Position numbers and translations under genes: made by a program. A stretch of DNA of 64,000 bases, taken from positions 5,146,001 through 5,210,000 of the forward strand of contig NZ_CP121682.1 in NCBI RefSeq assembly GCF_029760955.1. The letters are read 5' to 3'. This DNA is from Streptomyces cathayae. Lineage in GTDB: Bacteria > Actinomycetota > Actinomycetes > Streptomycetales > Streptomycetaceae. The notes under the pieces were generated by a model, which was given only the letters and a program-made list of their open reading frames with translations, was not told where the DNA came from and did no database searches. Positions 27,573 through 38,069 of the stretch are shown one piece after another; position 1 is the stretch's first letter; each line of letters starts with the position of its first letter.

Positions 27573-28262
27573 ACGCGCCCCTCAGCCAACCACGGAGAGT
27601 GACCGCCACTGCAGACCAGGGCGGACGGTGAGTTGGGTCTGGAGTTGCGTTCCTCGGCCTCCCGGAGGGTGATCGCCACCGCATGATCGAGTGGGAGGCG
27701 GATCGGCCCCGGTGGGTTGCGATCCTCGGCCACCCCGGAGGGTGACCGCCACTCTGGATGTCGACGCAGGGGGTGTCGTCATACGGTCCGTTGCGATCCT
27801 CGGCCACCCCGGAGGGTGACCGCCACAGGATCACTGCCGCGAGTCCGCCGCCCATCCACTTGTTGCGATCCTCGGCCACCCCGGAGGGTGACCGCCACAC
27901 CCGTGAGGCAGTCCGGGGTAGACCGGCTCCTGGTTGCGATCCTCGGCCACCCCGGAGGGTGACCGCCACGGCCAACGGCGCGATCATCTACAACGTCGGC
28001 AAGGAGTTGCGATCCTCGGCCACCCCGGAGGGTGACCGCCACGTCGACGCCCTTGGACGCGGCACCCTTCACCCAGTCGTTGCGATCCTCGGCCACCCCG
28101 GAGGGTGACCGCCACTGGCGGGGCTGTCCACGAGCGTGCTGGCCCTCGCCGGGTTGCGATCCTCGGCCACCCCGGAGGGTGACCGCCACGTCGACCTCGT
28201 TGCCTGTGCCCTCAAGGGTGAAGTAGTTGCGATCCTCGGCCACCCCGGAGGGTGACCGCCAC
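27573..28262 (-). CRISPR. CRISPR array 1, type I-C, 8 intact + 2 decayed repeats
   Basis: Transcribed leftward, repeats of 37 bp read GTGGCGGTCA...GAGGATCGCAAC. Intact copies lie at 28226, 28153, 28079, 28006, 27933, 27862, 27790 and 27716 (left coordinates). Two degenerate copies at 27644-27679 and about 27573-27609 mark the distal end. There are nine spacers of 34-37 bp, all different. The repeat's inner part can fold as an 8-bp stem (GGTCACCC with GGGTGGCC, one G-U pair), leaving a 12-nt 3' handle. Confidence 0.97.
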
Positions 28263-29776: not shown

Positions 29777-30441
29777 TCGTCGATGTCCTGGGTGTCGTCG
29801 AGGAGGTACAGGTCGTGCAGGGCCTGCTGGTAGCGGTGGGTGCCTGCGAGGAGTTTGGGCATGCAGTCGGTGGCCATGGAGCAGCGGCGGCAGCGGCTGT
29901 CGGCGACGGGGGGCGGGAGTGTGTGGTTGTGGCTCAGGAGGTTGCGGACGGCGTTCGTCGCATCGAGGACGCGGGTGCGGAGGGCTTCGTTGACGGTGAC
30001 GATGTGGCGTCGCCGGTCGGTGCCGGAGTAGATGGCCGCTGTGGTGACCGGTTGCTTGAACATGTACTCGAGGCACATGGCTTGGGCGGCGACCTGGACG
30101 TCAGCGGGGCCGCCGGGGTGGTAGCGGCCCGATTTGTGCTCGACGGGGAGGACGGTGCCGTCCGCATGCAGTTCGACGGTGTCGCAGATTCCGGTCAGTC
30201 CATGGCCGTCGTGCCAGACGGGCAGGGCATGGAGAGTACGCACGGTGCCGCGGCCGCGGTTGCCGGGGGTGTCGACGCGCTGGTGGAGGAGGGTGCCGCG
30301 CACGGTGGCCGCATCGTCGGCGAAAGAGTCCTCGAGGAGGATCAGACCGCACTGGCGCGGACAGTAGGTGTAGTGCTCCAGGGCGGAGAGGGGGACTTGG
30401 GCCTGCTCTGCCTCTCCGCCCTGACGGGATGCGACGGTCAT
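29773..30441 (-). CDS. cas4: CRISPR-associated exonuclease Cas4
   Basis: The 222-residue RecB-like nuclease has an iron-sulphur site formed by YCPRQCGL near residue 27 and CRRCSMATDC near residue 185. Nuclease motifs include RGTLLHQRVD, GICDTVEL and VEHKSGRYHPGG (the ExK signature). It trims prespacers and selects the PAM. ATGA overlap with cas7. Confidence 0.95.
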   Translation of the reverse strand: MTVASRQGGEAEQAQVPLSALEHYTYCPRQCGLILLEDSFADDAATVRGTLLHQRVDTPGNRGRGTVRTLHALPVWHDGHGLTGICDTVELHADGTVLPVEHKSGRYHPGGPADVQVAAQAMCLEYMFKQPVTTAAIYSGTDRRRHIVTVNEALRTRVLDATNAVRNLLSHNHTLPPPVADSRCRRCSMATDCMPKLLAGTHRYQQALHDLYLLDDTQDIDE

Positions 30442-31307
30442 CCGATCAGAGTGGTGAGAGAAACGCCCTCGGGCAGGTCGGCCTCGTGGACGTCCACCTG
30501 GTAGTCGCTGAAGGCGCGGGCGGTGGCGTCGCCGGGCCCCTTGACGGTGACGCGGTCGAGGAGCTGGCGGGCGGGTGCCCTGCCGAACTTGTCGTCGTGG
30601 GTGAAGACATACAGGCCTCGAAGGTTCAACTCGCCGCGGGCCGCGGCACGGTCATGGTCGAACATGAGAGTGAAGGCGCGCCAGAACATGGCGAGGTCGT
30701 CGCAGGTGACGCCGGTGCGGCCGGCAAGGGGGGCGCTGAAGTGGCCTTCGCCGCGGTAGAGGCCGTAGGGGACGATGTGCTTGGAGCCCATCTCGGTGGT
30801 CTTCTTCTCGAGGTCCTCGCTCTTGGTGGGGGTGACGCGGGTGATGCCGAACTCGAAGGGGGTGATCGGGTCCACCGAGCGGGAGAAGGTGAGCTGGATC
30901 GGGCCGCGGACGCGGCCGGCCTGGCGGTTCTTCTGCCCGGTCGTCATGACGGCGCCGAACATGCGTACGTCGAAGAAGGTCCGGCACATCCACTGCTGCG
31001 CGTCGAGCTGGCTGGCCTCGGAGCCGACGGCGTCGGCCGCGTAGGCGCGTTCGTGCTGGCTGTTGAGGGCGACGCCGGCCTCGACGTAGATGTCGTAGCC
31101 GGGCTTGTTCTCCTCCTCGTTGAGGAGGGCTACGGTGTTGCGGATCTTCCTCTTGAGGGCGACGTCGGTGATCAGGCCCTGTCCGGAGACGGGGTCGGTG
31201 CGGGGCATTCCGCCGGCGTCCGGGTCACCGTTGGGGTTGCTGTCGCGGGCTTCGAGAAGGAAGACGAAGTCCATCTTGCGGTTCGGGTCGAGGTGCGGGT
31301 TGGTCAT
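30438..31307 (-). CDS. cas7: Cas7 (Csd2), type I-C Cascade backbone
   Basis: The 289-residue backbone subunit binds the crRNA spacer in 6-nt steps, flipping every sixth base. It has the RAMP-type start MDFVFLLEARDSNPNGDPDA and the Csd2 features GLITDVALKRKIRN, MTTGQKNRQAGRVRGPIQL and SKHIVPYGLYRGEGHFSAPL. The N-terminal start MTNPHLDPNRK fits. It is separated from cas8c by 116 nt, the only sizeable gap in the operon. Confidence 0.95.
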   Translation of the reverse strand: MTNPHLDPNRKMDFVFLLEARDSNPNGDPDAGGMPRTDPVSGQGLITDVALKRKIRNTVALLNEEENKPGYDIYVEAGVALNSQHERAYAADAVGSEASQLDAQQWMCRTFFDVRMFGAVMTTGQKNRQAGRVRGPIQLTFSRSVDPITPFEFGITRVTPTKSEDLEKKTTEMGSKHIVPYGLYRGEGHFSAPLAGRTGVTCDDLAMFWRAFTLMFDHDRAAARGELNLRGLYVFTHDDKFGRAPARQLLDRVTVKGPGDATARAFSDYQVDVHEADLPEGVSLTTLIG

Positions 31308-31423: not shown

Positions 31424-33211
31424 CTACGCGGGCTCGCTAGCAGCCCCGTTGGTGGCCTGGTCCTTGTTCTTCTTGTGCGCGGCCTTGGCTGCGAAGTCCG
31501 CGGCGCGCTGCTGCTCGTAGCCGAGGACGAACTTGGCCTGCTGCTCGGTGGTGAGGAGCAGGGGAATACCGTCGTGGGGGTCGAAGGCGGCGAACGCCTC
31601 GGCCAGCCTCCTGCTGAGCGCGGTGTAGGCGGCCCCGTTGTCGCGGCGCAGCCGCTTGAGGTGGGCGTTGGCGCCCAGACGCAGGTTCTTGAACACGGCG
31701 GCCGGCGCGGTCATGGCGGTGCCGAAGAACTTGTCGCCGATGGTGGCCTTCACGTCCGGCAGCGCCGCGTACTGGATGGCTTCGAGGATGGCGAAGACGC
31801 GCCCGCACAGGTAGCCGGGGTCGAGCTGGGTGGAATCGAGGCGGTCGGCGGGGGCGGTCACCTGGTGGTCCTTCCGGTTCGGGTGGAGCGCGAGCCGTAG
31901 CAGGGCGATGCGCGGGGGGTCGACGCGCCGGTCCGCGCGGATGCGCTGCAGGAGGTGGGGCAGGAGGCGTGCGGGTACCGGCCCGCGGGTCAGGGCAGCG
32001 TGGAGAAGTTCTTGCTCCAGGCCCTTGGGGGCACTGCCGGAGACGTACTTGTTCGCCTTGGCGTCCCAGCGGCCTGCGGCGAGGGCGAGGCGCCACAGCG
32101 GGAAGTAGCGGTAGCTCTGGTTCCAGCCGTCGTAGACACGGTGATGTTCGAACCAGGCGCCGAGGTGGTTGCGGAGCCGTCCGACCGGAATGTCCAGCCA
32201 GTCGAGGACGACGGCCCGGGCGTTGTTAAGGCCCAGGGTCAGCGAGTAGTAGGCGTTGGGGTCGATCCGCTCGGCGGTGGCCGGGTCGGGGTGCTCGTGC
32301 AGCGAGGTAAGGAGCCGGGCCACCGCGGCGTCGGTGGCGGTGTCCAGCGTGCCGAAGAGGTCGTCGACCGGTTCTCGCGTCCACCACACGGTGACCGAGT
32401 CGGTGGCGCGTCGGCGGTTCGTGTCGCTGGCGAGCAGCAGGTTCAAAGCGGCCATGGCCCGTCCGCCGCACCGCTCGCACACGGGCGTGTTGACCAGCTG
32501 CAGGGCGCCGCCCCGTCCCTGTGCGGAGGCGTTGATGCTGACGAGCTGGGCGTCGCGGCCCCGGCCTCCCGTAGGAATGGCACCCGACTTGATGCTCTCG
32601 GGGATGGTGCTGAGCAGTTCGCCGTCCTTGCCGCAGACCAGGCACAGACCGGCGGCGTTCTTTCCGGACTTCCGGGACCGCACGCCGGCCGCCCACGCCT
32701 GACGCACGCTGGGCAGCAGGTGCAGCCAGGTGTTGTCGTGCGCCATCAGAGCGATGTTGTCGGCGGCCGTCATCTCCTCCGGCACCTCGAGCCCGTGCAG
32801 GACACCCGTGGTGACGAACGTCCGCACCGCCTCGGCGTAGGGGTCGTCCGGTGCCGCGTTTGCCCAGGCCAGCAGGAAATCCGCGTACGCATCGCGGCGG
32901 CGCCGGCCCTCCGCGACGGCACGCTCGGTCACCGGCTTGCCCGGGGCCTGCTTGGGCAGGGCGAGGACGTACTGGGCCGTGTCCACCATCAGATACGGCG
33001 GCGGCATCGTCCCGGACCGGTAGGCGTACGGGGCGGTCGTCTCCAGCGGCTTCTCGCCCTTGGCCGAACGCCGGTCCACGAAGCCGGCCGCGGTTCCGTC
33101 CGCGTTGAGCTGCAGGATCCACTGGATCCGCTTGGGCCGGTAGTACGGCGGCGGCAGCTCGTCGTCCGCCTCGGCTCGCGCCGCGTACTCGGTCAGACGG
33201 TGCAGGAGCAT
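31424..33211 (-). CDS. cas8c: Cas8c (Csd1), large subunit of type I-C Cascade
   Basis: The 595-residue product starts MLLHRLTEYAARAEADDELP at ATG 33211. A zinc ribbon CLVCGKDGELL...CERCGG sits near residues 190-260. The middle region RIALLRLALHPNRKDHQV and the C-terminal helical bundle (small-subunit equivalent) are as in Csd1. It recognises the PAM. The last 25 residues are Lys-rich (KAAHKKNKDQATNGA). It starts 7 nt after cas5. Confidence 0.94.
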   Translation of the reverse strand: MLLHRLTEYAARAEADDELPPPYYRPKRIQWILQLNADGTAAGFVDRRSAKGEKPLETTAPYAYRSGTMPPPYLMVDTAQYVLALPKQAPGKPVTERAVAEGRRRRDAYADFLLAWANAAPDDPYAEAVRTFVTTGVLHGLEVPEEMTAADNIALMAHDNTWLHLLPSVRQAWAAGVRSRKSGKNAAGLCLVCGKDGELLSTIPESIKSGAIPTGGRGRDAQLVSINASAQGRGGALQLVNTPVCERCGGRAMAALNLLLASDTNRRRATDSVTVWWTREPVDDLFGTLDTATDAAVARLLTSLHEHPDPATAERIDPNAYYSLTLGLNNARAVVLDWLDIPVGRLRNHLGAWFEHHRVYDGWNQSYRYFPLWRLALAAGRWDAKANKYVSGSAPKGLEQELLHAALTRGPVPARLLPHLLQRIRADRRVDPPRIALLRLALHPNRKDHQVTAPADRLDSTQLDPGYLCGRVFAILEAIQYAALPDVKATIGDKFFGTAMTAPAAVFKNLRLGANAHLKRLRRDNGAAYTALSRRLAEAFAAFDPHDGIPLLLTTEQQAKFVLGYEQQRAADFAAKAAHKKNKDQATNGAASEPA

Positions 33212-33218
33212 CCCGTAC

Positions 33219-33971
33219 TCACCGCCCCATACCGGAGCCGTCGGCACGCCACGCGGACGAGACCGGCATCGCAACCGCGTCCGCCCCCAGCGGGGCGACC
33301 GGCACCGACATCACCCCCTGGTGCAGCTGCGCATGGAACCAGCGGTACTGCTCCCCACCGGAGGCGGGATAGACGATGGAGTGCAGCATGACACCGAGAT
33401 CCTCGTCCCGGCCGATCGGCTGGGCGTCCGTCTGCGGCCCGAAGAAGGCGCTGAACTCCCGACAGCCGAGATAGGGCTCGGCGAAGCAGGCGCCCTTGTC
33501 GACGCGCCGGCGGAGCTGATCGCGGTACTTCTGCTCGGGCACATCCGCGGCGTGCGGAGCACGCAGGATCTGCGCGCGGATCCGGTAGTGCACATCGCGC
33601 AGCAGCATGCTGTTGCGCTGATCGCGGTCGGTCTCGACGTCGTAGCGGCGCCCGGGGTCCTTGCGCAGCGCGGCGACCTCCGTGGCGCTGACCACGGACT
33701 TCACCTCATTACGCCGGACCTGCGTCCACTCGATCGGCTTCAGCACCTCGATCGCCGTGATGACGTACGCCATCTCCGGCTTCCAGAAGATCGCCTCCAG
33801 CACCCCCACCGCGGCCGACGGCGTCATCACCGGGTACGAGACCCGCTCCACCTTCAGCTCGGGCCGGGTGAAGCAGGCTAGTGGCCCGGACACCTCCACC
33901 ACCAGATCGGGAAACGTCCATCCCCCATTGCCTCGGCGGCCGGCCGAGGCAGGGGCCGCGCGTACGGCCAT
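33219..33971 (-). CDS. cas5: Cas5c (Cas5d), crRNA-processing subunit of type I-C
   Basis: The 250-residue RAMP protein replaces Cas6 in type I-C. It cuts each repeat 3' of the stem to leave an 11-nt 5' handle. FPDLVVEVSGPLACFTRPEL and SYPVMTPSAAVGVLEAIFWKP are typical; candidate catalytic residues are the Tyr and Lys in YDVETDRDQRNSM and the first helix. ATG 33971 has GGGGGG 6 nt upstream. It begins the cas5-8-7-4-1-2 operon, 690 nt after cas3. Confidence 0.93.
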   Translation of the reverse strand: MAVRAAPASAGRRGNGGWTFPDLVVEVSGPLACFTRPELKVERVSYPVMTPSAAVGVLEAIFWKPEMAYVITAIEVLKPIEWTQVRRNEVKSVVSATEVAALRKDPGRRYDVETDRDQRNSMLLRDVHYRIRAQILRAPHAADVPEQKYRDQLRRRVDKGACFAEPYLGCREFSAFFGPQTDAQPIGRDEDLGVMLHSIVYPASGGEQYRWFHAQLHQGVMSVPVAPLGADAVAMPVSSAWRADGSGMGR

Positions 33972-34077
33972 GCAGAAACCCCCCAAGTTGCTCACTCGAC
34001 CCCCGAGTCGGTGGAGGAGTCGTAGTGACGGCGAAGAATAAGGACTCACACTGACAACGGCCCCTCACCAGCGGCTT

Positions 34078-34106
34078 TATCAGCGTCTTTCAACGGAACG
34101 CTGATA
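34078..34106. promoter_or_regulatory. 9-bp inverted repeat before cas5
   Basis: TATCAGCGT (34078-34086) and ACGCTGATA (34098-34106) are perfectly inverted around 11 nt, some 110 bp upstream of cas5 in DNA of lower GC than the genes around. It is a candidate operator of the cas5-cas2 operon. A clear -10/-35 for cas5 is not visible. Confidence 0.5.
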
Positions 34107-34152
34107 CCGGCCGGCGCACTGAAGGCAGAGGAGCGCGAGGACCTCCCCGGGA

Positions 34153-34200
34153 GGGAGGCCTTCCCGCCGGCGCCGCATGCGCCTTCTGGGAGGGCCTCCC
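34153..34200 (-). terminator. Terminator-like hairpin after the small peptide ORF
   Basis: GGGAGGCCTTCCC (34153-34165) and GGGAGGGCCTCCC (34188-34200) pair at 12 of 13 positions. In the leftward direction it follows the peptide stop by 12 nt and would insulate that transcript from cas5. Confidence 0.75.
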
Positions 34201-34212
34201 GCAGAGGCTGCG

Positions 34213-34329
34213 TCAGTCGATCACGAGCCAGAGCCTGAGCCTGGGCCTCGTAATCAAAACCAAAACGACGACGAGAATGAAAATCCCAACGGTCAAAGGA
34301 GCCGCATCTTTTACTGAATCAATCTGCAC
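34213..34329 (-). CDS. Small one-helix membrane peptide, candidate CreT-like toxin
   Basis: This is a 38-codon ORF. GTG 34329 has GAGGGG 8 nt upstream; the same frame is open to ATG 34362 (49 residues), but that start has no ribosome site. The peptide has a short charged start (MQIDSVKDAA), one hydrophobic segment (PLTVGIFILVVVLVLIT, residues 11-27) and a basic end (RPRLRLWLVID), the design of type I toxins. Third-position GC is about 63% (24/38), well below its neighbours. Three AGG Arg codons fall within five codons, rare in Streptomyces. A protospacer for the crRNA-like RNA below covers its promoter. Toxicity is inferred, not shown. Confidence 0.6.
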   Translation of the reverse strand: MQIDSVKDAAPLTVGIFILVVVLVLITRPRLRLWLVID

Positions 34330-34348
34330 TGTTCTAACCCCTCGCCCC

Positions 34349-34394
34349 TTCATTGACTTCATGTGGTCTAGCTAAGACCTGTTGAAGTGTGACC
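34349..34394 (-). promoter_or_regulatory. Peptide promoter overlapped by a TTC-PAM protospacer
   Basis: On the minus strand, GGTCAC (34394-34389), an 18-bp spacer and TAGACC (34370-34365) form a plausible promoter for the small peptide. On the plus strand, TTC (34349-34351) is followed by ATTGA-c-TTCAT-GTGGT-c-TAGCT (34352-34373), matching the start of the pseudo-spacer at 34550. A Cascade bound here would cover the -10 and start point. Confidence 0.65.
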
Positions 34395-34473
34395 GTAGGG
34401 GACACGGGTGGAGCAGGTGGGCGGTTTCACCGCAGATACCGCCGGGATACGACGAGAGACGTACCTGAAGTAG

Positions 34474-34587
34474 ACGTGGCCCAGAGGCTGATGCCTCTGG
34501 GCCACGTGCTCGCTGTTCGGTCAGACCAGCTACACCACTATGAACTCAATGTTGCGATCCTCAGCCCCACCACCGGTCAGGGGACGG
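34474..34587 (-). ncRNA. crRNA-like RNA between cas3 and cas5, candidate CreA/CreR
   Basis: Read leftward, 34587-34551 aligns without gaps to the 37-nt CRISPR repeat. The last 12 nt (GAGGATCGCAAC) are identical and 15 of the last 17 match, while the first half has diverged. Next comes a 43-nt spacer-like segment (34550-34508), then a perfect 14-bp hairpin (ACGTGGCCCAGAGG with its complement, 34494-34507 and 34474-34487, loop of 6). The intact handle means Cas5c could still process it. Its first 23 nt match the peptide promoter in 5-nt blocks. It has no second repeat; the hairpin would form the 3' end. Confidence 0.65.
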
Positions 34588-34658
34588 GGAGGCTGCCACA
34601 GGCCCGTATCGGGCCGCCCGCCTATCGTGGCACTCCGGCAGCCGTCTTCAGGAGAGAG

Positions 34659-36962
34659 TCACACCATGCCGTACGCGTCGAGGTCCTCTGGCTCGTCGGG
34701 GTCGAGACCGCGCCGCTCGTGGTAGGCGCCGTGCCAGAGCAGCAGGTCGCCCGTCACCGGGACTGCCAGCCCGGAGCACAGCGCGGCGTCGGCTTCCCTC
34801 TTCGGCAGGGAGGCCGTGTGCTGTTGGAGACTGCGCAGCACCTCCGGGCCGCATGGCCGGAACGGATCCGTCAGCTGTGCGACGGCCCCCTCGATCTGCT
34901 CCCGGTCACTCTCGTTGCGGATGACGATCACCGGGACACTGTGCTGGTCTTCGATCATCTGGAACTCCCGGTCCACCTGCGGGAAGTCAAGGGCGCTCCG
35001 CAGTTTCTGGATCTCCGCTCCCAAGCCGGACTCCGGATGCCCGCCCTGCTGGTAGGCGTAGCGTCGCTGGTAGTAGCTGTGTAGCGCGTCCAGATCGTCT
35101 GGCTCGGCAAGCGGCTGCGGTCCGAAGAACTGTTTCCCGGCCTGCACCGCGGCCTGGTACTCGGCACTGCGCGGCCGGCCGCCGTCTGCGGGGTCGAAGA
35201 CGATCACGGTGCCGAAGGCCAGGCGTCCGTCACGGTTGCAGCGGCCGGCCGCCTGCTGCAGGGACTCCGCAGGCGCCCACGCCCGGTACACCCGCGGGAA
35301 GTCGACATCGACACCCGCCTCGATCAGACTGGTCGACACCACTTGAACCGGCTCGCCCCGGCGGAGCAGTGCGCGGATCTCTGCGATCACCTCCCTGCGG
35401 TGGGCACCGGTCATCCGCGTCGACAGATGCAGCACCAGACCCTCGGCGGATGCGGCTTCCAGGTGTCGGTGAAAACGTGCCGCATCCCTGGTGGTCCCGA
35501 CCACCGTCAGCACCTGCGGGTGCTCCGCCGCCTCCCGCGCGATGCTCTCCAGCGTCACGTCCTGCCCCGTGCGCCACTCGTACTGCACCCGCCGCAAAGA
35601 CTCGAACAGCGCCGCCGGATCGTCGACGACCGCCTTCCGCTCCAGCCCCTTCCACGCCGACAGCTCCCAGAACGACGGCTGGGTCGCCGAGACCAGCAAC
35701 ACCGTGACCCCGAAGTGATCCACCAGCCCCCGCAAGCCGCTCAGGATCGGTGCGAGAAGACGATCCGGCAGAGCCTGCACCTCATCCAGGACGATCACCG
35801 AGCCGGCTAGGTTGTGCAAGCGCCGCATCTGCGACGGCCGGTGAGAGAACAAGGACTCGAACAGCCTGACCGTGGTGGTCACCACGAACGGCGCGTCCCA
35901 GTTCTCCGCGGCCAGCTTCGCCGTCCGGGCACGCTGCCGCAGAACGTCACGCTGCTCCTCGGTCAGTTCACCGAGCGCAGCCCCCTCCGGGTCGAGGTCC
36001 ACCGCACTGTGATGTTCCAGCACCACCGTCGGCTCGCCGCCCACGTCATCGGGGTCGAGCAGGTCCCGGTACACGGCCACGTTCTGTTCCGTGATCGAGA
36101 TGAACGGCACCGCCAGGACGACCCGCCGCATGCCGTGCTCCGCCGCATGCCGCAGCGCGAAGCCGCCCGCGGCCATGGTCTTCGCCCCACCGGTCGGGAC
36201 CTGGAGCACATACATCCCTGGCTCATCCGTCGCCGCCGCACACGCCTGCTCGTACACGGAATGCCTCAGGGCATCCACCGGGGAAGACTCCCGCCCCGCC
36301 AGGTACCGCTTCCTCCGGGCCTCGTAGCGCTCCACCAGAGCCGCCATGTCCACCGGCTCTCCCACCCGCGTCGGCGTACCGCCGAAGTGGGCGGACGTGT
36401 CGAGGTAATCCGCGTCCACGACGCAGGAGAACAGCATCCTCACCAGAAGGTCGAGCCCCAGCCGCTGATCCCGCTTCGGCAGGCCGAGCAACCAGCCGGG
36501 CGGGGCAATCCGCGACGGGCGGTGGATCTCCGGAACGATCCGCTCGACAGCGCGGATCGCCTCCTCCACCCGTGCGGCCTCCGAGCCACCGGGGCGGCCC
36601 TTGTGCAACTCGTCCCGGAGCCGCTCCATGTCCGGAAGCCCGCCATGATGCCCGAACACCACTGCCGCACATGCCAACTGCGTGTACCGCTCCGCCAGCA
36701 CTGTGCCGGCATGCTTGTGCGGGATCCCCACCTTCCCTTTACCCCCGCGCGCCTCGACAGCCTTGAGCTTGTCCTGCCAAGCGCACGCCCCCTTGCCCAC
36801 GTCGTGTACCAAGGCCAGATACTCCGCCAACTCGCCGGCCCCGAACACCTCTCCGAAGCGCCGCGCCAGCGCAGCCGAGCCACGCAAGTGGTCCTCCAAC
36901 GTGTGCCGCGCCCCTGAGACAGCACTCAGACTGTGCGCATACAACGCACCCCCTACAGCCAC
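34659..36962 (-). CDS. cas3: Cas3 helicase-nuclease, type I-C
   Basis: The 767-residue effector has an HD nuclease domain (His near residue 10 in LYAHSLSAVSG; YLALVHDVGKGACAW; VVFGHHGGLPD) and an SF2 helicase: Walker A LQVPTGGAKTMAAGGF, motif II SVIVLDEVQALPDRL, motif III LLVSATQPSFW, motif VI LQQAAGRCNRDGRL. GTG 36962 has GGGAG 5-9 nt upstream. The ORF runs open to 37136 but that part lies in the array-2 leader and repeats the same nonsense peptide as leader 1, so it is not coding. The stop is at 34659. Confidence 0.95.
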   Translation of the reverse strand: MAVGGALYAHSLSAVSGARHTLEDHLRGSAALARRFGEVFGAGELAEYLALVHDVGKGACAWQDKLKAVEARGGKGKVGIPHKHAGTVLAERYTQLACAAVVFGHHGGLPDMERLRDELHKGRPGGSEAARVEEAIRAVERIVPEIHRPSRIAPPGWLLGLPKRDQRLGLDLLVRMLFSCVVDADYLDTSAHFGGTPTRVGEPVDMAALVERYEARRKRYLAGRESSPVDALRHSVYEQACAAATDEPGMYVLQVPTGGAKTMAAGGFALRHAAEHGMRRVVLAVPFISITEQNVAVYRDLLDPDDVGGEPTVVLEHHSAVDLDPEGAALGELTEEQRDVLRQRARTAKLAAENWDAPFVVTTTVRLFESLFSHRPSQMRRLHNLAGSVIVLDEVQALPDRLLAPILSGLRGLVDHFGVTVLLVSATQPSFWELSAWKGLERKAVVDDPAALFESLRRVQYEWRTGQDVTLESIAREAAEHPQVLTVVGTTRDAARFHRHLEAASAEGLVLHLSTRMTGAHRREVIAEIRALLRRGEPVQVVSTSLIEAGVDVDFPRVYRAWAPAESLQQAAGRCNRDGRLAFGTVIVFDPADGGRPRSAEYQAAVQAGKQFFGPQPLAEPDDLDALHSYYQRRYAYQQGGHPESGLGAEIQKLRSALDFPQVDREFQMIEDQHSVPVIVIRNESDREQIEGAVAQLTDPFRPCGPEVLRSLQQHTASLPKREADAALCSGLAVPVTGDLLLWHGAYHERRGLDPDEPEDLDAYGMV

Positions 36963-37095
36963 ACTGCTCCCTCTCCGCTCCGGACAGTGCCTCCACGCCC
37001 CACCGAGGCCAAGACCGTAGCCGCCATGTCTGACACTGGCCGGACAGAGCACCAAATCGGTAACCTCCAAGTCCTTCCCCCGTTGGCAGCACCCT

Positions 37096-37226
37096 GCTTC
37101 GGAACCGGAAGCACACACACGACACGCGGATCGCACCGAAGTCGAATGTCCGCATTGGGCAGCTCTGTCACCCGTTGCTTACCCGCACCGCAGCGAGCAG
37201 TACGCTGTTTTCGCTGCTCAGGCAGC
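37096..37226 (+). promoter_or_regulatory. CRISPR leader 2
   Basis: This 131-bp segment adjoins the first repeat of array 2 and matches leader 1 at 125 of 131 positions as an inverted copy. It is divergent from cas3; the cas3 promoter must lie in or near 36963-37095. Confidence 0.9.
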
Positions 37227-38069
37227 GTGGCGGTCACCCTCCGGGGTGGCCGAGGATCGCAACTCGTCGTGGAGTTCGAAGCGGGCGGAGCCGAGGTTGG
37301 TGGCGGTCACCCTCCGGGGTGGCCGAGGATCGCAACCCCATCGCCACCATCTCCGCCAAGGAGGACGCGTGAGTGGCGGTCACCCTCCGGGGTGGCCGAG
37401 GATCGCAACGCCGGGGTCCTGGACATTCAGGACCGGATCAATCTGTGGCGGTCACCCTCCGGGGTGGCCGAGGATCGCAACACCATCATCGGCTCCTGGG
37501 GCCCCCACCACTCCCGGGTGGCGGTCACCCTCCGGGGTGGCCGAGGATCGCAACTTCCACTGGTCCTTGCCGAGGAGCCCCATCAGCCGGGGTGGCGGTC
37601 ACCCTCCGGGGTGGCCGAGGATCGCAACGCCGTCGCGGTGCGCCAGCTGCTGCGGGAGGGGCGAGTGGCGGTCACCCTCCGGGGTGGCCGAGGATCGCAA
37701 CAGTTTGGCCCGCCGGTCCATGAGGCGCAGCACGGTGGTGGCGGTCACCCTCCGGGGTGGCCGAGGATCGCAACACGGCCTCCTCGGTCAGCTCACCGTT
37801 GTCCGTCAGGAGTGGCGGTCACCCTCCGGGGTGGCCGAGGATCGCAACGAAGATCCATGCGTCAACCGTACGGGGTCGTCCCGTCGTGGCGGTCACCCTT
37901 CGGGGTGGCCGAGGATCGCAACAAGGTGGTCAAGTCGTGGCGCGTGCCCACCGACAAGGGTGGCGGTTACCCCCCGGGGTGGCCGAGGATCGCAACAACG
38001 GCCGTATCCGGTGGGGTGGCCTGGTCACGAACGTGGCGGTCACGCTCCGGGGTGGCCGAGGATCGCAAC
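37227..38069 (+). CRISPR. CRISPR array 2, type I-C, 12 repeats
   Basis: Transcribed rightward. Repeats of 37 bp start at 37227, 37300, 37373, 37445, 37518, 37592, 37665, 37738, 37812, 37886, 37960 and 38033. The first nine are identical; the last three carry point changes (CCCTTCGG, GGTTACCCCC, CACGCTCC), typical of the old distal end. The 11 spacers are 35-37 bp, different from each other and from array 1. Confidence 0.97.

Follow-up and report, generated by a model that had tools for sequence, protein, structure and literature searches.

A candidate CreTA-type module within the type I-C cas locus of Streptomyces cathayae

What is a short hydrophobic open reading frame, preceded by the relic of a single CRISPR repeat, doing between cas3 and cas5 of a Streptomyces CRISPR system? 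The question is raised by the DNA referred to here as the window, a stretch of 64,000 nucleotides from the 7.6-Mb genome of Streptomyces cathayae (contig NZ_CP121682.1, positions 5,146,001 to 5,210,000), which contains a complete type I-C cas locus. An initial annotation of the letters alone had proposed a CreTA-type module, in which Cascade, guided by a crRNA-like antitoxin, keeps a toxin gene silent. According to excerpts of the relevant papers, CreTA is experimentally supported in types I-B, I-F and I-E (PMC8501985, PMC10097628, PMC12055562), and a 2025 review asks whether similar mechanisms occur in other CRISPR types (PMC12737573). Type I-C is among the commonest subtypes, and its Cascade is described as having no Cas6 subunit (PMC7684278). 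The window element is, in our judgement, probably a CreTA-type, Cascade-repressed module of type I-C; we infer the silencing and the toxicity, and the proposal draws its support from the covariation of guides with targets and from the CreTA layout.

The cas locus and the interval between cas3 and cas5

All the cas gene models lie on the minus strand and comprise cas3, cas5c, cas8c, cas7c, cas4, cas1c and cas2 (Table 1). The NCBIfam type I-C models for cas5, cas8, cas7 and cas1 all pass their cut-offs. Two CRISPR arrays, with repeats of 37 nt and spacers of 34-37 nt, border the genes, and the repeats at the far end of the second array (27589-27690, minus strand) are decayed. Two array spacers, at about 37410-37444 and 37996-38031, have matches to the Streptomyces phages VWB and Gilgamesh. 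The VWB match falls in the portal gene (86%) with TTC in the place of the PAM, and the Gilgamesh match in a minor tail gene (91%) with ATC in that place. The spacers of the second array gave six phage records at E 0.7, which is the chance level, and a search of viral contigs for a related cas5 found none.

Table 1. Features of the candidate module and of the neighboring cas genes, in the order of the cas strand
Feature	Position	Strand	Remarks
cas3	34659..37136	-	longest ORF; TIGR01596 above cut-off, TIGR01587 slightly below cut-off
GTGCCACGATAGG, candidate promoter element of guide RNA gene	34621..34633	-	by eye
Degenerate CRISPR repeat (psi-R)	34551..34587	-	intact 5' handle GAGGATCGCAAC at 34551-34562
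Spacer-like guide segment (psi-S), target-matching part	34528..34550	-	23 nt
Strong hairpin at the close of the guide RNA, either terminator or 3' end	34474..34507	-	-33.3 kcal/mol, z -8.7; no T run
Protospacer-like target	34352..34373	+	22 nt; lacks one base opposite guide position 12
PAM TTC	34349..34351	+	complement GAA sits in the purine-rich Shine-Dalgarno region of the ORF
Shine-Dalgarno region	34338..34351	-	GAAGGGGCGAGGGG
Small hydrophobic ORF, candidate toxin	34213..34329	-	38 codons from GTG
GC-rich hairpin 3' of the ORF, possible terminator	34141..34200	-	-38.3 kcal/mol, z -1.8
Inverted repeat TATCAGCGT...ACGCTGATA, possible operator	34078-34106	-	upstream of the cas5 promoter motif
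TTGTCAGTG-N8-TATTCT, promoter motif of the DNA-damage (PafBC / RecA-NDp) type, before cas5	34035..34057	-	consensus from excerpts of PMC5656591
cas5c	33219..33971	-	TIGR01876; start assumed to be ATG 33971
cas8c	31424..33274	-	TIGR01863; longest ORF, real start may be further in
cas7c	30438..31307	-	TIGR02589

The candidate module occupies the cas3-cas5 interval of about 690 nt, with type I-C cas genes on either side, and it has the same placement in relatives. In the direction of the cas genes a repeat relic is followed by the guide-like segment, then by a strong hairpin, by the target and its adjoining Shine-Dalgarno region, and last by an ORF of 38 codons and a second, unremarkable hairpin; the pieces that the initial annotation had described are there, on the stated strand and in the stated order. 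The decayed repeat is confirmed: the relic is identical to the array repeat at 22 of 37 positions without gaps, including the last 12 of 12, and its local alignment score is reached by none of 500 shuffles. Its exact handle is one of 21 copies of GAGGATCGCAAC in the window and the sole copy outside the arrays, which hold the other 20; shuffles give none.

The strong hairpin after the guide is likewise present with the stability given in Table 1, and in relatives too inverted repeats come after the guide, T-tailed, by eye, in L045 and L047. By eye, 8 of 11 loci carry a sequence like the candidate promoter element about 50-75 nt 5' of the handle (the window, L003, L004, L006, L013, L041, L045 and, in a weaker form, L047); in L005, L014 and L025 none was seen by eye within the 125 nt displayed. 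In a comparison with Rfam, nothing reached the gathering scores.

With one target base taken to be missing at position 12, 20 of the 23 guide positions match the target, the exceptions being positions 6, 12 (the missing base) and 18. TTC directly precedes the target, which adjoins the Shine-Dalgarno region on its upstream side. The combination of PAM and seed, with position 6 left free, has one zero-mismatch site in the genome, and two others have one mismatch. The initial annotation had described a promoter overlapped by this matching protospacer. The protospacer is there, adjoining the Shine-Dalgarno region; a scan for consensus (sigma-70-type) promoters over 33900-34720 found none, so that the overlap is a positional inference. 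A scan of the same range for T-tailed terminators also found none. The hairpin claimed after the ORF does exist, but it is unremarkable, with 9 of 200 shuffles as stable.

Guides and targets in related loci

Related loci were gathered by their Cas5. Eleven came from named genomes; the rest came from 12 Streptomyces genomes out of 392, from 15 genomes out of 394 in the family, from 10 out of 392 in a second draw of the genus, and from 10 of 48 plasmid records (H1-H9 and H12). The draws overlap, with L006/L016, L007/L029/L064, L013/L057, L014/L058 and L041/L050 as duplicate loci; the plasmid matches H9-H12 have identical scores, and a genus search around another centre gave no additional matching genome. 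With duplicates left out, a solitary handle lies 5' of cas5 in 13 loci (12 if L045 and L046 are one): the window, L003, L004, L005, L006, L007, L013, L014, L025, L041, L045, L046 and L047. It was not found in L008-L010 or in the cas5 clade of L011, L017-L022, L031-L036 and L040, where a handle of different sequence would escape because the search pattern was built on that of the window's family. Among the 12 distinct loci with a solitary repeat, seven have clear guide-target pairs of their own, with differing guides, two have weaker pairs and three have none.

This count comes from a swap test of 13 guides against 13 intervals, scored at 15 positions (1-17 minus 6 and 12) beside TTC or TTT, with a missing base allowed at 12; the scoring was fixed after the window's match was known. 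Against its own interval the window's guide scored 15, those of L003, L004, L006, L045, L046 and L047 scored 14, and that of L005 scored 13, followed by L014 (11), L025 (10), L041 (9), L013 (8) and L007 (6). The nine independent own pairs thus span 10-15, swapped guides and intervals reach at most 10 of 15 (the near-identical L045 and L046 excepted), and the maximum over 780 shuffled intervals is 11. The L014 and L025 pairs are rated weaker because 0.26% and 2.9% of shuffles, respectively, reach their scores.

Because the swap score had been designed after the first match, a neutral scan was made without PAM, gap or favored positions in 12 loci, L046 being left out. Over 11 nt, the same target was best or tied-best in 9 of the 12, always on the same strand, with TTC at the flank in seven and TTT in two; in L014 it belonged to a three-way tie. 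The best score was reached by 0-5 of 200 shuffles in seven of these loci, by 20 of 200 in L025 and by 37 of 200 in L014. An ungapped scan over 17 nt placed the target best or tied-best in 8 of 12 loci, where the shuffles matching the score numbered 56 of 200 for the window, 100 for L003, 27 for L004 and 159 for L014. The poor figures for the window, L003 and L004 arise because their targets miss one base. That base is missing at position 12 in all three, their guides being different, and as the three share one clade a single origin of the one-base-short target is possible.

Covariation between pseudo-spacer and promoter region, which the initial annotation had proposed as a check, is therefore found: the guides are different, and in most loci the guide fits the target in its own interval, with strand and PAM the same from locus to locus. 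The contrary case that it had named, a relic with no promoter match, occurs in three of the 13 loci. Of these three, L041 has a solitary handle but no target, in a truncated interval; L007 also has a handle but no target, and its cas3 is divergent; L013 has no convincing target, its assembly is 78% complete, and a start codon is absent near its Shine-Dalgarno region. The module is missing from many tree loci, as would be expected of something dispensable, such as a decayed array with a self-matching spacer and no present function. A decayed self-match would not covary, however, whereas the differing guides still match their own targets. The swap test leads us to reject the decayed array, which we hold to be very improbable indeed.

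The mismatches also have a pattern. In the nine independent pairs, positions 6 and 12 account for 14 of the 19 mismatches within positions 1-12 (P 6e-8 if the spread were uniform), and position 6 accounts for 6 of the 11 in the neutral scan (P 2e-4), giving a periodicity of six bases across the pairs. Positions 6, 12 and 18 correspond to those that Cascade leaves unpaired, and on this analysis the pattern reads as a Cascade signature. In two haloarchaea, passages of PMC8501985 give the seed of CreA as exactly 1-5 and 7-11; in H. hubeiense, changes at 6 and 12 are tolerated by CreA, whose TTC PAM lies in the complement of a purine-rich promoter element. The window has the same combination of a partly complementary guide, a PAM-flanked target at an ORF and a seed of 1-5 and 7-11, together with a place inside a type I cas locus and a degenerate, ectopic repeat that keeps the crRNA handle.

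Complementarity between guide and mRNA also invites an explanation that dispenses with Cascade, namely a type I toxin-antitoxin pair in which an antisense RNA blocks translation of the toxin mRNA and the repeat relic is merely its evolutionary source. The guide could pair with the ORF-sense strand immediately 5' of the Shine-Dalgarno region, and type I toxins are short hydrophobic peptides, as stated in excerpts of PMC12737573. The Shine-Dalgarno region of the window, L004, L006, L045 and L047 includes the complement of the PAM (GAA or AAA), so that conservation of the PAM there could have another cause. An antisense RNA would have no need, however, for mismatches placed mostly at 6, 12 and 18. 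The repeat handle is conserved, and L003, L005, L014 and L025 keep TTC/GAA though, by eye, no Shine-Dalgarno sequence directly follows. Among the genomes searched (best candidates per genome), strong ORF-family matches lie only beside cas5, and L041 has retained the guide and not the ORF start after its Cascade was broken. Mismatch periodicity and PAM favor Cascade, and an antisense pair appears improbable.

The small open reading frame and its natural losses

The small hydrophobic ORF that had been annotated stands up as a strongly hydrophobic frame, and it is so in its own frame only, with 11 of 3000 shuffles both open and hydrophobic at the same cut. The frame is also open further back, to an ATG inside the target. 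An ORF with a start occurs in seven loci (the window, L003, L006, L014, L045, L046 and L047), where it has 38-45 codons, a best 17-residue mean hydropathy of 2.4-3.0 and a basic tail. Strong hydrophobicity is confined to the ORF frame in all six loci tested, with 1-17 of 3000 shuffles per locus as good. Pairwise alignments of the peptides score 0.8-10 standard deviations above shuffles, the lowest being L014-L045. The closest pair, L045/L046, has eight replacement changes and one silent change, so purifying selection at the codon level is not shown; the hydrophobic character of the family is kept while the sequence drifts.

A six-member profile of the family, compared with 5.8 billion proteins in a word-based look-up, retrieved five proteins, all of 41-43 residues, three of which sit on the contigs of L006, L045 and L047. 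Strong family matches occur in at least 3 of the 392 Streptomyces genomes, all beside cas5, among the best 18 candidates per genome (that of L014 was missed); the same search gave six marginal matches with E 0.004-0.009. For the seven family members, Pfam gave a weak match to DUF3309 (E 0.005) and one to Flp1_like (0.055), in one member each, with no KilA-N-type match at E 0.1, and PADLOC gave nothing. The candidate toxin is probably a membrane peptide.

Not every guide is followed by such a peptide. L004, L005 and L025 keep guide and target with no hydrophobic ORF recognizable by eye, and L013 has the hydrophobic body, for which the sole preceding in-frame start is a TTG 35 codons upstream. 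Just 3' of the target region, L004, L005 and L013 have, by eye, short frames with early AGA codons. AGA codons are rare in Streptomyces, and these frames possibly represent a different, RNA-type toxin.

Such frames in the place of the ORF, together with the mostly replacement changes between L045 and L046, would suit a toxic transcript of the classic CreT kind, with the ORF simply carried along. The archaeal and Acinetobacter CreT are likewise reported, in passages of PMC10097628, to act as RNAs despite conserved mini-ORFs. Set against this are a length of 38-45 codons, hydrophobicity in the ORF frame only in six of six loci, relatedness at the level of the profile, and the requirement of Citrobacter rodentium CreT for translation (PMC12055562, in part). 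We consider a toxic RNA rather unlikely, and the peptide remains our preferred candidate.

The position of the target upstream of the Cascade operon admits one more interpretation, autoregulation of the CreR type, in which the guide tunes transcription running into cas5-cas8-cas7 and the ORF is a leader peptide or incidental. Guides and targets with no hydrophobic ORF, as in L004, L005 and L025, fit this, as does L003, where the ORF ends close to the cas5 promoter motif with no terminator evident by eye. In the window, however, the ORF and a hairpin separate the target from cas5, which has its own damage-type promoter motif directly before it (Table 1), although read-through is possible; and the in-frame hydrophobicity of the ORF (seven loci, six of them tested) also counts against the idea. 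Autoregulation seems to us a poor prospect as the explanation of the module, which we continue to treat as a CreTA-type one.

The motif before cas5 agrees with TTGTCAGTG-N8-TANNNT, given in excerpts of PMC5656591 and PMC5087735 as the consensus of actinobacterial LexA-independent (PafBC / RecA-NDp) damage promoters. Of 44 type I-C loci scanned with a slightly relaxed pattern, some of them duplicates or short stretches, 39 have it ahead of cas5 and/or cas3, against 0.005 occurrences per 10 kb in simple shuffles. On this sequence evidence, damage may induce the type I-C systems of Streptomyces.

Losses of the module bear indirectly on its possible dependence on Cascade genes. In all seven loci with an intact ORF, cas5, cas8 and cas7 are free of stops. 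In L041/L050, which are plasmids of S. californicus, an IS5 element splits cas8c; handle and guide are retained, the target was not found, and the ORF is reduced to a C-terminal piece. Its alignments with the peptides of the window and L003 are equalled by 16 and 7 of 1000 shuffles, respectively, and it has no such advantage over shuffles with the L006 and L047 peptides. In the plasmid locus L044 (S. globisporus C-1027), the fetched stretch yielded no cas7, cas4 or cas1; its homology with L047, a close relative, starts seven codons inside the ORF, guide and start being gone. L047 keeps cas3-5-8-7, guide, target and ORF; cas4-1-2 were not found in its fetched stretch. The ORF is thus broken in both of the independent loci that have broken Cascade genes and keep traces of it, and it is also broken in L042, which has lost the guide and the first 21 ORF codons despite cas3-5-8-7-4-1 looking whole. 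Two broken cases are too small a number for statistics.

The module can also be absent beside present Cascade genes, as in the nearest relatives, L001 and L002, which have cas5, cas8 and cas7. No solitary handle was found in L001, L002, L015, L028, L030, L039, L043, L048 or L049, and no family ORF is visible by eye in the printed intervals of these nine, L030 having almost no interval. L026 and L027 have an array 5' of cas5 in the module's place. The Streptomyces plasmid loci L048 and L049 keep cas5-8-7, with cas3 not found in the fetched stretch, and in L048 an IS5-family transposase is annotated next to cas5.

A separate observation concerns phages. An intergenic phage stem-loop resembles the first 26 nt of the CRISPR repeat, with about 92-96% identity over 23-26 nt of them, the handle being absent. 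The carriers are L051, L054, L055 and L056, at 1501-1527, with the Streptomyces phages Celia, Itza and Zeigle; in Kumquat and Abafar an antirestriction gene is annotated about 1.3 kb downstream of it. The stem-loop is either a phage terminator or a mimic of the repeat, that is an RNA anti-CRISPR, for type I-C.

Proposed mechanism and comparison with known systems

Cas5c is the repeat-processing subunit of type I-C. In the mechanism that we propose, a short RNA would comprise the degenerate repeat, the guide segment and the closing hairpin; Cas5c would trim it at the kept handle, and the trimmed RNA would load into Cascade (Cas5-8-7). Cascade would then bind the TTC-flanked target at the start of the ORF through seed positions 1-5 and 7-11 and block transcription of the ORF, and Cas3 would not be licensed because the pairing between guide and target is only partial. 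If Cascade were lost, diluted or inhibited by an anti-CRISPR, the ORF would be expressed and its single-span membrane peptide would harm the cell. The expression of both RNAs, processing, binding, silencing, toxicity and membrane action are thus all predictions from the letters of these loci.

A broader picture, which taken as a whole falls a little short of being probable, is an actinobacterial family of type I-C CreTA modules. In it, a single-repeat guide processed by Cas5c would park Cascade at the start of a membrane-peptide toxin gene, in about half of the loci the Shine-Dalgarno region of that gene would itself supply the PAM, the one-base-short target would perhaps be selected, and a link to DNA damage would be possible. 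Selection may have favored the short target as a means for Cascade to occupy the DNA without calling Cas3. The damage-type promoter motif could tie the dose of Cascade, and hence the toxin, to DNA damage.

If the proposal is true, such Streptomyces may be poisoned when Cascade is deleted or blocked, and a response to anti-CRISPRs of type I-C is predicted. The differing natural guide-target pairs also provide a ready data set on the minimal pairing with which Cascade silences and does not cut.

A search of open-licence papers found none that links CreTA to type I-C, and among those on crRNA-like RNAs, Streptomyces and toxins none that describes such a module; in passages of PMC11941474, which deals with type I-C tools in Streptomyces, the word 'toxin' is absent. 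The comparisons that follow draw on excerpts of the papers cited. CreR shares with the window element a crRNA-like RNA with a partial match near cas genes (PMC12737573, PMC13131331), but its target is a cas promoter and there is generally no toxin, whereas here the target adjoins a small ORF. CrePA resembles it in having a protein toxin restrained by a Cascade-bound crRNA-like RNA; that toxin is typically a KilA-N protein acting on FtsZ (PMC12737573), whereas here there is a peptide of about 40 residues with no such domain match.

In the type I-F CreTA of Acinetobacter, which lies in the cas3-csy1 interval (PMC10097628), there is likewise a guide-target match on the PAM side and a mini-ORF with a Shine-Dalgarno sequence; it differs in its two repeats, its divergent orientation and an RNA toxin that is independent of the peptide. 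The type I-B modules of Haloarcula hispanica and Halobacterium hubeiense (PMC8501985) have the same seed of 1-5 and 7-11 with 6 and 12 free, and a TTC PAM within the complement of a purine-rich element; that of H. hispanica also has a single repeat-like part and a terminator. These modules are archaeal, processed by Cas6 and equipped with an RNA toxin that sequesters tRNA, whereas the present locus has no cas6, and pairing in the window, unlike theirs, reaches position 23.

The nearest published case is the type I-E CreTA of C. rodentium (PMC12055562). It too sits between cas3 and the first Cascade gene, with a repeat-like and spacer-like guide and a PAM-flanked partial target, which in C. rodentium lies at the toxin promoter, and its toxin is encoded by a short ORF, of 96 bp, whose translation is needed for toxicity. 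Fitness there needs the Cascade genes and not cas3 or cas1-2. The differences are that the C. rodentium guide lies opposite the toxin strand, whereas guide and ORF share a strand in the type I-C locus, and that the C. rodentium toxin has, according to its authors, no homologous annotated sequence, whereas the ORF described here belongs to a family with a hydrophobic core found in several Streptomyces. The CreTA kind of module is thus already known; what would be new here is its type I-C, Streptomyces, hydrophobic-peptide form.
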